Shown here one piece after another: positions 43,063 to 48,117 of a stretch of DNA of 64,000 nucleotides. Positions within the stretch are counted from its first letter, which is position 1; the number at the start of each line of letters is the position of its first letter. Source of the stretch: Halosaccharopolyspora lacisalsi (GTDB lineage: Bacteria > Actinomycetota > Actinomycetes > Mycobacteriales > Pseudonocardiaceae); contig NZ_JACGWZ010000001.1 in assembly GCF_014137975.1 (NCBI RefSeq), positions 682,001 through 746,000 of the forward strand, read 5' to 3'. Made by a program: the position numbers and the translations under genes. Under the pieces are notes generated by a model. The model did not search any database, had not been told where the DNA came from, and worked only from the letters and a program-made list of their open reading frames with translations.

Positions 43063-44007
43063 ATGACCGTCTGTCCCACCGCCACCGAAGGCCGCCCGTT
43101 CGGCCGGAACCTGACCGCCATGGTGACCCCGTTCGACTCCACGGGGAAACTGGATCTGAACCTGGCCCAGGAGCTGGCCGCCTATCTGGTCGACCACATC
43201 GGCAACGACGGCCTGGTCATCAACGGCACGACCGGGGAGAGCCCCACGACCACCGACGAGGAGAAGGAAAGCCTGATCCGCGCGGTCGTCGAAGCGGTCG
43301 GGGACCGCGCCACGGTCGTCTCCGGGGCGGGCACCAACGACACCGCGCACTCGGTGGAGCTGGCCCGCGGCGCCGAGAAGGCGGGCGCGCACGGGCTGCT
43401 GGTCGTGACGCCGTACTACTCGCGCCCGCCGCAGGAGGGCCTCTACGGGCACTTCACGACGGTGGCCGACGCGACCGAACTGCCGGTGATGCTCTACGAC
43501 ATCCCGCCTCGCTCGGTCGTGCCGATCCAGACCGACACCCTCAAGCGGCTGGCCGAGCACCCCAGGATCAAGGCGGTCAAGGACTCCAAGCACGACCTGC
43601 TGTCCGGCATCGACGTGCTGGCCAACACCGACCTGGCCTACTACTCCGGGGAGGACCCGCTGAACCTGCCGTGGCTGTCCGTCGGAGCGGTGGGCTTCGT
43701 CAGCGTGATCGGCCACGTCGTCGGCGACCGGCTGCGCCAGATGCTCGACGCCCACGAGTCGGGCGACATCGCCGGTGCCCGCGAGATCCACCACGGGTTG
43801 CTGCCGGTGTATCGCTCGATGAATTTCGTGGGAGGCGTCATCTTCTCCAAGACCGCCCTGCGGCTGTGCGGCTACGAGACCGGCCAGCCGCGGCTGCCGC
43901 TGCCTGCGGCCACCGACGAGCAGCTGCGCGTCATCACCAGTGATCTGTGGGATGCTGGACTGGTCCTGGTCAATCCCGATGCCGCAGCAGAGGTGAGCCC
44001 GCGTTGA
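43063..44007 (+). CDS. dapA: 4-hydroxy-tetrahydrodipicolinate synthase
   Basis: DapA condenses pyruvate with aspartate semialdehyde, the first committed step of lysine and diaminopimelate synthesis. The 314-residue TIM barrel has INGTTGESPTTTDEEK, VTPYYSRPPQEGLYGHF, MLYDIPPRS (catalytic Tyr nearby) and IKAVKDSKHDL with the Schiff-base Lys. The ATG at 43063 follows a leaderless-type -10 box. Its stop overlaps the TTG of rnj by four bases, so dapA-rnj form an operon, as in many actinomycetes. Confidence 0.96.
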   Translation: MTVCPTATEGRPFGRNLTAMVTPFDSTGKLDLNLAQELAAYLVDHIGNDGLVINGTTGESPTTTDEEKESLIRAVVEAVGDRATVVSGAGTNDTAHSVELARGAEKAGAHGLLVVTPYYSRPPQEGLYGHFTTVADATELPVMLYDIPPRSVVPIQTDTLKRLAEHPRIKAVKDSKHDLLSGIDVLANTDLAYYSGEDPLNLPWLSVGAVGFVSVIGHVVGDRLRQMLDAHESGDIAGAREIHHGLLPVYRSMNFVGGVIFSKTALRLCGYETGQPRLPLPAATDEQLRVITSDLWDAGLVLVNPDAAAEVSPR

Positions 44008-45728
44008 GCGCCCGCTCCACATCCACCGAGAACCACCCCGTCACACCGACTTCCTCCGCGCCTCCGCCACCCCTGGCCGAAGGCGCTCTCCGGGTGATGG
44101 CACTGGGCGGCATCGGCGAGGTCGGCCGGAACATGACCGTGTTCGAGTACGGGGGCAGGCTGCTCATCGTCGACTGCGGGGTGCTGTTCCCGCAGGACGA
44201 CGCCCCCGGGGTCGACCTGATCCTGCCCGACTTCGCTCCCATCGAGGAGCGGCTCGACGAGGTCGAGGCCCTGGTGGTCACCCACGGGCACGAGGACCAC
44301 ATCGGCGCCATCCCGTTCCTGCTGCGGCTGCGTCCGGAGCTGCCGGTGGTCGGTTCGCGGTTCACCCTGGGCCTGTTGGCGGCCAAGTGCAAGGAGCACC
44401 GCCTCAGTCCGACGCTGATCGAGGTGGCCGAGGGGCAGCGCAGCAAGCACGGCGTTTTCGACCTGGAGTTCTTCGCGGTCAACCACTCCATCCCGGACGC
44501 GTTGGCCGTGGCCGTCCGGACCCCGGCCGGCACGGCCCTGCACACCGGGGACGTCAAGCTCGACCAGCTGCCGCTGGACGGGCGGTTGACCGACCTGGCC
44601 GGCTTCTCGCGGCTGGGTGACGAGGGTGTGGACCTGTTCCTGGCCGACTCCACCAACGCCGAGGTGCCGGGATTCGTCACCCCGGAGCGCGAGATCGGCC
44701 CCGTCCTGGACTCGGTGGTCGCTCAGGCCACTCAGCGGCTGATCGTGGCGTGCTTCGCCAGTCACGTGCACCGGGTGCAGCAGGCTCTCGACGTCGCCGA
44801 GAAGCACGGGCGCAAGGTGTGCTTCGTCGGCCGCTCGATGGTGCGCAACATGGGCATCGCCGCCGAGCAGGGCATTCTGCGCGTGCCGGCGGGACTGCTG
44901 GTGGACTTGGACGAGGCGCTGGAGATGCCCCCGCACCTGGTGGTGTTCGTCTCGACCGGTTCCCAGGGAGAACCGCTGTCCGCGCTGTCGCGGATGGCCC
45001 GCGGCGAGCACCGGCAGATCAGCATCCGGCCCGGGGACACGGTGGCGCTGGCCAGCTCGCTGATCCCCGGTAACGAAACGGCGATCTTCGGTGTCATCAA
45101 CGGGCTGGTTCGCCTGGGGGCCGAGGTGGTGCACCAGGGCAGTTCGAAGGTGCACGTCTCGGGTCACGCCTCGGCGGGAGAGCTGCTGTACCTGTACAAC
45201 GCGGTCCGGCCGAGCAACGTCATGCCGCTGCACGGCGAGTGGCGGCACCTGCGCGCCAACGCCGAGCTGGCCGAGCTCACGGGAGTCCCGCCGGATCGCG
45301 TGCTCATCGCCGAGGACGGGGTCACGGTGGATCTCGTGGACGGGATCGCCGCTTTTTCCGGGCGCCGCGAGGTCGGCCACGTCTACGTCGACGGACTCTC
45401 CGTCGGCGATGTCGGCGAGTCCACGCTGTCGGACCGGCTGGTCCTGGGCGAGGGCGGATTCCTGTCGATCACGGTGGCCGTCGACGCGGCCACCGGGCGC
45501 GCGGTGTCACCGCCGACGGTCTCCGGGCGCGGGTTCTCCGATGACCCCAAGGCCCTCGACGACGTGGTCCCGCTGGTGGAGATGGAGTTGTCCCGCACCG
45601 AGTCCGAGGGCATCGTCGACACCCACCGCATCGCCCAGTCGGTGCGTCGCACGGTCGGGAAGTGGGTGGCCGACACTTACCGGCGGCGCCCGATGATCGT
45701 GCCGAACGTGCTGCCGGTCAGCTCCTGA
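44004..45728 (+). CDS. rnj: Ribonuclease J
   Basis: RNase J is a metallo-beta-lactamase/beta-CASP nuclease with 5'-3' exonuclease and endonuclease activity in RNA turnover. The 574-residue protein has VTHGHEDHIGAIPFLL (zinc motif), LHTGDVKLD, FLADSTNAEVPG, the beta-CASP domain (VIVAC-like LIVACFASHVHRVQQ) and VSGHASAGELLYLYNAV, with MPLHGEWRHLRANAELA as the last metal-site region. The TTG at 44004 overlaps the dapA stop (TTGA); no better start is in frame. A hairpin follows the stop. Confidence 0.93.
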   Translation: MSARSTSTENHPVTPTSSAPPPPLAEGALRVMALGGIGEVGRNMTVFEYGGRLLIVDCGVLFPQDDAPGVDLILPDFAPIEERLDEVEALVVTHGHEDHIGAIPFLLRLRPELPVVGSRFTLGLLAAKCKEHRLSPTLIEVAEGQRSKHGVFDLEFFAVNHSIPDALAVAVRTPAGTALHTGDVKLDQLPLDGRLTDLAGFSRLGDEGVDLFLADSTNAEVPGFVTPEREIGPVLDSVVAQATQRLIVACFASHVHRVQQALDVAEKHGRKVCFVGRSMVRNMGIAAEQGILRVPAGLLVDLDEALEMPPHLVVFVSTGSQGEPLSALSRMARGEHRQISIRPGDTVALASSLIPGNETAIFGVINGLVRLGAEVVHQGSSKVHVSGHASAGELLYLYNAVRPSNVMPLHGEWRHLRANAELAELTGVPPDRVLIAEDGVTVDLVDGIAAFSGRREVGHVYVDGLSVGDVGESTLSDRLVLGEGGFLSITVAVDAATGRAVSPPTVSGRGFSDDPKALDDVVPLVEMELSRTESEGIVDTHRIAQSVRRTVGKWVADTYRRRPMIVPNVLPVSS

Positions 45729-45967: not shown

Positions 45968-46259
45968 ATGCGTGCATCTGTCCGTCTCCTGGGTACCGCG
46001 TTCGCGACCGCCGGTCTGCTGGCTATGGGGTCGCCGGCCTTCGCCGCCGGTGGGCCTCCGGAGGTCGACGTCGAGGACGTTCAGGCTCAGCTCGCCGAGA
46101 ACGAGGGCGGTGACGGCGGTAACGGCGGCGACGGCGGCCTCGGTGTGAACGCCTGCGGCCTCATCCCGGTCTCGGTGCTGGGTGAGAACTCCGTGGAGTG
46201 CTCCGCCGGCAACGGCGGCGCCGGCGGCGACGGCGGCGACGCGGGCTCGACCCAGAAGT
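45968..46259 (+). repeat. 292-bp direct repeat, copy 1
   Basis: Positions 45968-46259 match 46555-46846 with a single difference (G to A at the seventh base). The left edge is the ATG itself and the right edge is the first T after the last shared AAG codon. Flanks on both sides are unrelated apart from the ribosome-binding site. Confidence 0.95.
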
Positions 46260-46261
46260 AA
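45968..46261 (+). CDS. Secreted Gly/Asp-rich small protein, short copy
   Basis: The 97-residue protein has a Sec signal peptide (VRLLGTAFATAGLLAMGSPAFA, cleavage after AFA). The mature part of about 70 residues has an acidic lead (PPEVDVEDVQAQLAENE), Gly-Asp-Asn runs (GGDGGNGGDGG) and a two-Cys hydrophobic core NACGLIPVSVLGENSVECSAG. The Cys pair around a hydrophobic stretch recalls chaplin-like surface proteins of actinomycetes, but the sequence is not a standard chaplin. AGGAG lies 7 nt before the ATG. The coding sequence is nearly identical to the next gene but stops at the end of the shared block, so it lacks the Lys-rich tail. Confidence 0.8.
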   Translation: MRASVRLLGTAFATAGLLAMGSPAFAAGGPPEVDVEDVQAQLAENEGGDGGNGGDGGLGVNACGLIPVSVLGENSVECSAGNGGAGGDGGDAGSTQK

Positions 46262-46270
46262 CCGCGCGAT

Positions 46271-46295
46271 TGGCGTCGTGGTCGAATCGACGCCA
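46271..46295 (+). terminator. Hairpin after the short secreted-protein gene
   Basis: TGGCGTCG pairs perfectly with CGACGCCA around a 9-nt loop, 10 nt after the stop codon and ahead of the stronger hairpin at 46317. Confidence 0.5.
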
Positions 46296-46316
46296 TCATG
46301 GGCGGTTTTTCACGTG

Positions 46317-46351
46317 GTGTGCCGATCTCGAAGGAGGTCGGCACACTTTTT
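46317..46351 (+). terminator. Rho-independent terminator with T tract
   Basis: A 13-bp stem with one G-T pair (46317-46329 with 46334-46346) closes on a GAAG tetraloop and runs straight into TTTTT. It is the only hairpin noted in the window that has a T tract. Confidence 0.85.
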
Positions 46352-46554
46352 CGTGTTCGATTGCGTCCGTGCGGAAGATGATGTTATCTCTCTGTGATTA
46401 AGCGGGTTCGAAGGACTCTTTCGTGTTACTGGGCGTGCTGGAGTCGGGATTCGGTGTCAGAGTGATTTCTGCGGGTCGGTGATCCGGTTTTCCTGTGATG
46501 TGGGTTGTGAATCGGTTCCGGTCCGAGAGAGATTCATCTAGATGGGAGTTTTGC

Positions 46555-46846
46555 ATGCGTACATCTGTCCGTCTCCTGGGTACCGCGTTCGCGACCGCCG
46601 GTCTGCTGGCTATGGGGTCGCCGGCCTTCGCCGCCGGTGGGCCTCCGGAGGTCGACGTCGAGGACGTTCAGGCTCAGCTCGCCGAGAACGAGGGCGGTGA
46701 CGGCGGTAACGGCGGCGACGGCGGCCTCGGTGTGAACGCCTGCGGCCTCATCCCGGTCTCGGTGCTGGGTGAGAACTCCGTGGAGTGCTCCGCCGGCAAC
46801 GGCGGCGCCGGCGGCGACGGCGGCGACGCGGGCTCGACCCAGAAGT
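46555..46846 (+). repeat. 292-bp direct repeat, copy 2
   Basis: Second copy of the repeat that begins at 45968, offset by 587 bp. It lies wholly inside the longer secreted-protein gene. Confidence 0.95.
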
Positions 46847-46947
46847 TCGGCAAGGACGACGGCAAGGGCAAGAACCACGGGAGCTACAAGTACAGCAAGG
46901 GCCAGGACGGCGAGGACGGCCAGAACGGCAAGACCACGATGTCCTGA
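46555..46947 (+). CDS. Secreted Gly/Asp-rich small protein, long copy
   Basis: The 130-residue protein has the same signal peptide and two-Cys core as the gene at 45968, differing only by Ala3 to Thr within the shared 97 residues. It then adds a polar tail FGKDDGKGKNHGSYKYSKG and on to GEDGQNGKTTMS. The tail is rich in Lys, Asp and Gly and could bind wall polymers. GGGAG precedes the ATG. The two genes probably encode surface structural proteins of different length. The gene ends at a long perfect hairpin. Confidence 0.8.
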   Translation: MRTSVRLLGTAFATAGLLAMGSPAFAAGGPPEVDVEDVQAQLAENEGGDGGNGGDGGLGVNACGLIPVSVLGENSVECSAGNGGAGGDGGDAGSTQKFGKDDGKGKNHGSYKYSKGQDGEDGQNGKTTMS

Positions 46948-46971: not shown

Positions 46972-47015
46972 ACGCGAATGTGCCGGCCTTCCCCGGAAGG
47001 CCGGCACATTCGCGT
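46972..47015 (+). terminator. Long perfect hairpin after the long secreted-protein gene
   Basis: Two perfectly complementary 21-bp arms (46972-46992 and 46995-47015) are separated by only two bases, 24 nt after the stop codon. No T tract follows. It should block polymerase and protect the 3' end. Confidence 0.8.
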
Positions 47016-47118
47016 GTCACGGCTCGGGTGATCTCTTCGCTCGTCACCGATGGCTGATCATCGGACGGGGCATCCTGTGGATCAATGCGCACGGTTTGCG
47101 ACCAAATAGGTGTCCGGG

Positions 47119-48117
47119 GTGATCACTCCGAGTGTCTCCTTGCGGACACGCCACGTCACCGAGGGAGTCCCGTGCTCGGGTGCCGCACGTTCTTCGAGGT
47201 CGAACGGGGACGCGAGGACGTCCTGAATCTCGTTTGGCAACAACAGCACTCCTGGCTGCGTCGCAAGGGCCGCGATCCCGACGCGATCCGCTTCGACCGG
47301 ACGACCGAGCTCGCCTCGCACGTCGAGGCGATCGCACTGGCACGTACCGATCGGGACGGTTCACGGGCTGTTCGCAGCCGCATCGAGGAACACAACCGGA
47401 ACGGGACCTGGACCACGCAGCTGACCGTGCTGACACCGGGTTCGAACGCGGTCGTTCTGGTGTGGTTGGACATCCTCGATCCGGAGGCCGACGGCACCGA
47501 CGGTGAGCAACGGTTCCGACGCACCCAGTGGACGGCGGTCCCGTGGCTGGCCTGCAACGCGCTGGAGGTTCTCTCCGCCCACGACGGCACGGCCCGGCTG
47601 GACACGCGGCCCCGAACGGAGCGGTCTCGCTCGACGTCGAGGCCGAGCGTGCTCGGGAGATCGTGCGAGTGTCGAAGGAGGAGTCGGGCACCGGTGATCC
47701 CGGCCCCGTTGTGCGGCTCGACGAACACGAGAACCCGGGGGTCTGGTCCGGTAAGGCATGGTCCGCGTTGCTCGCGCTGGAGGGCTGCGGTCGTGCGACG
47801 AGCGAGGGAAGACGCTCCCGTGACGTCGACGGATACCTCGAGAACCTGCCGGGCGGGTGCCGGGGATACCCGGCCAACCGGCACGCTCGTGACGAGAGCG
47901 ACGACGTCCGGAGCACCACGAGGTTCTACCGCGCGCGGTGGTTCTCCGTGCCCGTCGAGGTGAGCCGGGACGGGCACGCGTACACGGGGCGCACTTCAAG
48001 ATCGCGCAGGCGGGCGTGATCAGCCCGCGGCTGCACCGCCTGGACGACACGGCCAGGAGCGGCACGGTCTACGTCGGCTGCATCGGACCACATCTCCCGA
48101 CCGAGCAGAGCGATTAG
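47119..48117 (+). pseudogene. Multiply frameshifted gene of unknown function
   Basis: A continuous protein of about 330 residues is recovered only by shifting frame three times, each time in the -1 direction. The pieces are VITPSVSLRTRHVTEGVP, then VLGCRTFFEVERGREDVLNL and on through TTQLTVLTPGSNAVVLVWLDI, then GAVSLDVEAERAREIVRVSK onward, and finally AHFKIAQAGVISPRLHRLDD to the TAG at 48117. The breaks near 47172, 47605 and 47988 are all at C or G runs where one more base would restore the frame. Conserved hypothetical actinobacterial proteins end in a similar ISPR..YLDDTA..G..YVGYIG pattern. The stop overlaps the end of plsC by four bases. Confidence 0.7.

Follow-up and report, generated by a model that had tools for sequence, protein, structure and literature searches.

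Two adjacent genes for small, secreted-type proteins in Halosaccharopolyspora lacisalsi share an almost identical core, and from comparison with relatives we infer that this identity probably arose through interlocus gene conversion between old neighbouring genes, rather than through a recent duplication. The genes lie in a stretch of 64,000 nucleotides, here called the window (bases 682001-746000 of contig C1, from a draft genome of 5.37 Mb in 16 contigs). An identical core set between older, differing flanks is best fitted by gene conversion and not by a recent duplication. The cores follow the genome in which they are found, and the tail of the second gene and the spacer before it are of older ancestry, which supports the proposal of an earlier note on this DNA that conversion was confined to the coding sequence. 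Gene conversion of this kind is performed by RecA-type recombination. Such an exchange would have homogenised the two cores over whatever homology remained, its left limit near the start codon being set by leaders that had already diverged and its right limit, at the stop of the short gene, by a tail that has no counterpart in that gene. Comparable exchanges with other edges would have taken place in relatives.

The paired genes and their repeated block

The pair is directly downstream of the gene for RNase J (43947-45728), which serves as the anchor of synteny; this gene, the two genes of the pair and their block copies, signal peptides, tail, spacer, leader and hairpins are all given on the forward strand. 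The first gene (45968-46261) encodes a short form of 97 amino acids, with a signal-peptide-like start and an acidic, Gly-rich core with two Cys, and stops where the repeat does. The second (46555-46947) encodes a long form of 130 amino acids, in which the same core is followed by a Lys/Gly/Asp/Asn tail of 33 residues. Read by eye, the putative signal peptide of the short form covers 27 amino acids (45968-46048, ending in GSPAFAA) and that of the long form spans 46555-46635. In both forms, the two Cys flank a hydrophobic loop within the acidic Gly-rich part, and the mature core is strongly acidic, with a net charge of -11. The C-terminal tail of the long form (46846-46944) lies outside the copied tract and resembles the tails of the last array family gene in two relatives, G235 and G236, that are described below. 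It had been called Lys-rich, and six of its 33 residues are indeed Lys, but five are acidic and the net charge is only +1. Near its end are four Gly-X-Y triplets, a run equalled in 115/3000 shuffles; the Gly-X-Y runs in the tails of G235 and G236 do not exceed what chance gives.

Most of what the earlier note had said about the block itself was borne out. Its two copies (45968-46259 and 46555-46846) agree at 291 of 292 bases, and the sole mismatch is base 7 of the block, a G in the upstream copy and an A in the downstream copy (Ala3 versus Thr3), after which the tract is perfect for 285 bases (45975-46259 and 46562-46846). The identity claimed for third codon positions is matched at silent sites, since the short and long cores agree at every one of the 68 four-fold sites that can be compared. 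The flanks are, as had been stated, unrelated save for the ribosome-binding site: upstream, ungapped identity between the copies is 18/30 nearest the start and 17/70 further up, the similarity being only of a ribosome-binding-site-like kind, and downstream the likeness ends at once. The upstream copy does end at the block edge, with TAA, and the downstream copy does extend beyond it, by 33 further codons.

The sequences around the two genes carry several elements of their own. The spacer between them (46262-46554) is closer to the inner spacers of the G235 array than to their G236 counterparts, and shortly before the long form contains a leader or ribosome-binding stretch, ATTCATCTAGATGGGAG (46532-46548), of a type found before the array genes of both relatives; no array leader matched the stretch 5' of the short form above z 4. 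Downstream of the short gene is a terminator-like hairpin (46316-46347) of 14 pairs followed by a T-rich stretch, which passes the terminator scan. It is a variant of the perfect 21-bp inverted repeat that follows the long gene (46972-47015), which has no T run and is hence absent from that scan. Similar hairpins, their arms like TGTGCCGG...CCGGCACA, are found downstream of the array genes, and of the chaplin-like gene, in three genomes (the window; loci L046 and L047). Further downstream, 47085-47963 and 47528-48019 are overlapping open frames, maybe parts of one frame-shifted gene, and neither has a Pfam match.

Cores that follow the genome, tails and spacers that follow the place

Our profile search covered 390 genomes of the taxonomic family, 338 of them of good quality, with the genus of the window represented by a single genome. 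Relatives of the protein family were matched in 45/390 genomes (44/338 of good quality; 11/46 genera), and 25 of the 45 positive genomes have at least two matches, some of the weaker ones spanning little beyond the signal peptide. A contig scan with the window protein as query found no relative; with the alignment as query it returned five loci, one of them from Halopolyspora algeriensis. The nearest genomes by RNase J are G235 and G236, which belong to one genus and show 89% protein identity to the window; G236 is Halopolyspora algeriensis, and its four collected locus genes are letter-identical in that record.

In both genomes an array is found at the same place as the window pair, behind DapA and RNase J, in the order short, short, long (with a Lys/Gly-rich tail) and then a chaplin-like gene. 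The order short-then-long therefore holds in 3/3 genomes with an array at the RNase J locus, two of these three being of one genus. Among 30 other RNase J neighbourhoods, a chaplin-like gene was seen in 18 and an array gene in none, by a rough filter and by eye that may miss genes. As we read these sequences, the array is an old tandem array of small secreted-type protein genes behind RNase J.

Within this locus, the cores group by genome and not by position in the array. Codon-aligned core identity reaches 0.997 in the window pair, and is 0.843-0.874 when the three genes of G235 are compared with one another and 0.818-0.923 for the three of G236; between genomes it falls to 0.674-0.707 (window and G235), 0.635-0.649 (window and G236) and 0.558-0.607 (G235 and G236). 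Tree support for same-genome copies is 98/98 for the window pair and, for the sets of the two relatives, 100/99 and 100/100. A constraint that unites the three long forms lowers the log-likelihood by 242 units and one that unites the three first shorts by 300; both arrangements are rejected (the tree was built without the chaplin-like genes, and the very small AU p-values are read as "rejected" only). An unlinked paralogue from another contig of the source genome joins the window pair at poor support (44/11). The earlier note had named orthologous copies evolving independently as the outcome that would speak against it; in the three array genomes this was absent, and same-genome copies are the more alike. 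At the RNase J locus of these genomes, paralogues are thus closer to each other than orthologues are, at silent sites too.

These silent sites also bear on when the window cores became identical. The window core and the first array gene of G235 agree at 22/35 four-fold sites, and the first shorts of G235 and G236 at 9/27. For RNase J, the agreement is 217/337 between the window and G235, 226/333 between the window and G236, and 296/360 between G235 and G236. At the four-fold divergence of this last pair, the odds of zero differences in 68 sites are about 2e-6. If silent rates are similar, as this yardstick presumes, the window cores became identical after the split of G235 and G236.

The tail and the spacer have another history. 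The score of the window tail against that of G235 was reached by 0/3000 codon shuffles in the DNA comparison and by 17/3000 in the protein comparison; against the tail of G236, by 0/3000 (protein) and 10/3000 (DNA). The sum of the three tail protein comparisons was equalled by 0/3000 shuffles, and the G235 and G236 tails taken alone are weakly alike (225/3000 shuffles as good for protein, 96/3000 for DNA). Earlier settings gave weaker results (66/2000 as good for window and G235, 2/2000 for window and G236, 403/2000 for G235 and G236), the outcome of this test varying with its set-up and the tail boundaries having been placed by hand. A low-complexity habit common to tails of few letters could raise these scores. 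The inter-gene spacer of the window scores z 11.4 and 13.8 against the inner spacers of G235, z 5.7 and 4.4 against those of G236, and, mildly, z 6.2 and 7.5 against the RNase J-to-first-gene spacers of the relatives; the leader and hairpin elements that these spacers have in common probably carry part of the score. The spacer between RNase J and the short gene of the window is weakly alike to its counterparts (z 3.5 and 5.2). Since sequences related to the window tail and spacer occupy the corresponding position in other genomes, the second gene predates the homogenisation. The duplication is accordingly older than the homogenisation in this comparison of three genomes, in which the likeness of the G235 and G236 tails is weak alone.

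The edges of the shared tract are informative as well. The block had been described as starting exactly at the ATG, as if at a special breakpoint, and this part of the earlier description does not hold. The first bases are common in the family: after the first base, TGCGT is found in 36/79 collected family copies and TGCGC in 30/79, and over the first 13 bases the long gene of the window is the same as the first array gene of G235. Because gene starts are so widely shared, the left limit of the copied tract could lie at any point between a position shortly 5' of the ATG and base 8. The second short gene of G235 is near-identical to the long gene of that genome over the upstream flank (122/124 aligned bases) and the signal peptide, with less likeness further on. 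The two shorts of G236 are near-identical on either side of a divergent two-Cys loop; their likeness takes in the 25-30 bases that precede the start, and it continues past the stop into the 3' flank. Sharp tract edges are thus found inside longer diverged copies, and as those of G235 and G236 lie elsewhere than in the window, the start codon is no fixed edge.

Other ways to obtain identical cores

The alternative that survives best is birth-and-death evolution, in which arrays expand in each lineage by unequal crossing-over so that the copies are alike through being young, a process compatible with conversion in the relatives and one that we consider rather unlikely. Both relatives give it some weight, as the likeness of their copies takes in flanks as well as cores: the upstream flank in the second short and long genes of G235, and the sequence just before the start and 3' of the gene in the shorts of G236. 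In addition, the array cores of G235 and G236 are so far apart although their chaplin-like neighbour is 0.865 identical (four-fold sites 30/41), RNase J being at 0.92. Lineage-specific re-duplication can explain part of this pattern, and unequal crossing-over and fresh duplication may also be at work in G235 and G236. Against such an account for the window, the flanks there differ whereas the core is identical. Furthermore, between G235 and G236 the spacer before the first array gene aligns well, with z 22 versus z 10 for the first array gene itself. Identity over aligned bases is 0.79 for this spacer and for the first array gene alike, a value from free gapped alignment (0.75-0.79 for the array genes of the two genomes) that is not comparable with the codon-aligned range given above.

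Paired copies in other genera also argue against young copies as the whole explanation, because an excess of within-genome likeness is seen there in convergent pairs, and inverted copies are not known to be homogenised by unequal crossing-over. Convergent A/B pairs of the family occur in 14/14 loci used (L013, and L054-L066 without the neighbours of L061), 12 from genus g25 and two from genus g12, and sequence motifs decided which copy counted as A and which as B; L014, in which the copies are not convergent, and the other secreted genes of each locus were omitted. Extra small secreted genes are often found beside or between the genes of a convergent pair. Core identity in these pairs is 0.810 within and 0.768 between genomes (p 5e-5), with 0.703 versus 0.632 at third positions. 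The signal part shows a within-genome excess too (p 0.0008), and the tail shows none (p 0.40; 14 loci). Shared composition may add to the excess. The own partner is the best core match in only 3/14 loci (4/14 at third positions), so that exchange there would be mostly older than the species.

Direct pairs were compared in another genus, g57, using the four genomes with two copies and omitting the single-copy loci L052 and L053. Here the likeness of the signal part within genomes (0.964) exceeds that between them (0.922), the best of 24 permutations. Across these four genomes there is no within-genome excess in the mature part (0.838 versus 0.847; 20 of 24 permutations) or in the whole gene (paralogues 0.879, orthologues 0.881 and 0.877). 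Taken with the convergent pairs, this indicates that the concerted pattern is strong at the window locus and partial elsewhere.

A recent duplication, in which a coding-sized segment landed beside its source and no sequence passed from one old gene to another, is an unlikely origin of the window pair. Insertion of only the coding part could yield near-identity with no likeness of the flanks, but a tandem event would have repeated the full unit of 587 bases, and the match ends after 292. It would also have to be reconciled with a second gene that was already present, as the same-place relatives of the window tail and spacer indicate, and with the short-then-long order kept wherever the array stands at this locus.

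It is more improbable still that the identity is an artefact of assembly, with the consensus of one copy collapsed onto the other. The block is of a size at which short reads may run into trouble and the genome is a draft; nevertheless, by our reasoning the three distinct flanks permit one order only and the mismatch adjoins a unique flank, and comparable arrays are present in other assemblies. Finally, purifying selection or codon constraint acting alone can be set aside with near certainty: the family as a whole does conserve the signal peptide and the two-Cys core, but the window core shares 29/50 four-fold sites with the unlinked paralogue of the same genome against the full agreement within the pair, which makes constraint at the protein level insufficient by itself. 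Interlocus gene conversion between neighbouring genes that were already distinct is therefore the explanation that we retain.

Family identity, known systems and possible function

The two window proteins have no significant match in Pfam or NCBIfam. Their only Pfam match up to E 1 is that of the short form to the phage coat family PF05356 (E 0.068, below the cut-off), which we took as chance, as we did the weak matches in PHROGs (best E 0.09) and among solved structures (best E 0.057) and a match to the Rfam P34 sRNA (22.9 bits versus a gathering score of 44). An AlphaFold2 prediction had a mean pLDDT of 40.8 and was uninformative on the fold. Among the matches listed in searches of the chaplin, Halopolyspora and Saccharopolyspora literature, no paper title on the array protein family was found.

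Membership of the chaplins was considered in view of the two-Cys layout and the chaplin-like neighbour. Chaplins carry two Cys and assemble at air-water interfaces, and their long form is sortase-anchored. They are described as small secreted actinomycete proteins with short and long forms that coat hyphae (PMC4255298). The array proteins are similar in being small secreted-type actinomycete proteins with short and long forms, and a chaplin-like gene adjoins the arrays of G235 and G236. Array genes and chaplin-like genes also have a similar signal peptide, M/V-R-T-S-x-R-L...GSPAFA (L046, L047, L069 and RNase J neighbourhoods of other genera). The array proteins differ from chaplins in Pfam match, in the profile of the mature part and in the tail, and we rejected membership on the strength of Pfam and profile-profile tests. 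No match to PF03777 up to E 1 was obtained for the two window proteins and five other family members; the comparison of mature array proteins with the chaplin-like neighbours gave a probability of 0.06%, at a score reached by 11/40 column-shuffled controls; and no sortase motif was seen by eye in the tail of the window long form. The chaplin-like genes beside the G235 and G236 arrays themselves score 13.9 and 11.0 bits versus a PF03777 cut-off of 21. The source genome has four unlinked chaplin-like matches, of which L136 (G000:C8:115296-115538) just passes this cut-off (21.9 versus 21).

Two described cases of conversion come closer in process. PE_PGRS proteins are Gly-rich and surface-associated. 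For PE_PGRS17 and PE_PGRS18 of Mycobacterium tuberculosis, conversion that shifts a defined 12/40 polymorphism has been followed through many strains (PMC1762029). Like the window pair, these are adjacent direct actinomycete paralogues; conversion acts inside the coding region, as we propose here, and their intergenic markers keep their own pattern (PMC1762029). The window pair differs in that the identity takes in almost all of the short gene, the start is signal-peptide-like and the genus is represented by one genome; the PE domain is absent from the Pfam matches up to E 1 of both proteins. The second case is the long-lasting concerted evolution of prokaryotic genes (for example tuf, amo, hao and fla); the study in question counts 26 such genes, of which 22 encode members of stable complexes, and proposes a balance of dosage or subunits, or avoided interference between the subunits of one complex (PMC6053082). 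As there described, in those genes paralogues are closer than orthologues, also at silent sites, and synteny excludes a fresh duplication, as we observe here; the homogenisation considered there is that of the full gene, unlike the window pair, in which homogenisation is restricted to the core of a small secreted-type protein. The window pair is in this sense a further instance of an established process, and its protein family gave no significant match in the libraries searched.

The signal-peptide-like starts suggest that both forms are exported. More tentatively, and by analogy with known systems, the two products might meet at the cell surface as two co-assembling forms of one subunit. An unchanged core would let the short and long forms co-assemble, and the tail would give the long form an extra contact, for wall binding, cross-linking or capping. 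A further idea, speculative and rather improbable, is that of a constant core with a variable end, in which exchange would match the cores within a lineage while they drift fast between species, every lineage thereby having a mutually fitting set of co-assembling surface proteins of its own, and the tailed member would set the place or manner in which the assembly ends. The suggestion of the earlier note, that such a pair may serve to preserve one surface core and diversify its terminus, fits the order short-then-long seen in all three array genomes. The divergence of the G235 and G236 array cores (0.56-0.61), compared with that of the chaplin-like gene and of RNase J, is as expected of such a fast lineage mark; replacement by a different paralogue would give the same divergence.

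In conclusion, our results add a clear core-only case of homogenised paralogues for small secreted-type proteins of actinomycetes. The direct pairs, the convergent pairs and the short and long forms of this family provide natural replicates. If it is true that the homogenised cores co-assemble, the pair would offer an uncomplicated setting in which to ask why the cores of paralogues are kept identical in bacteria.
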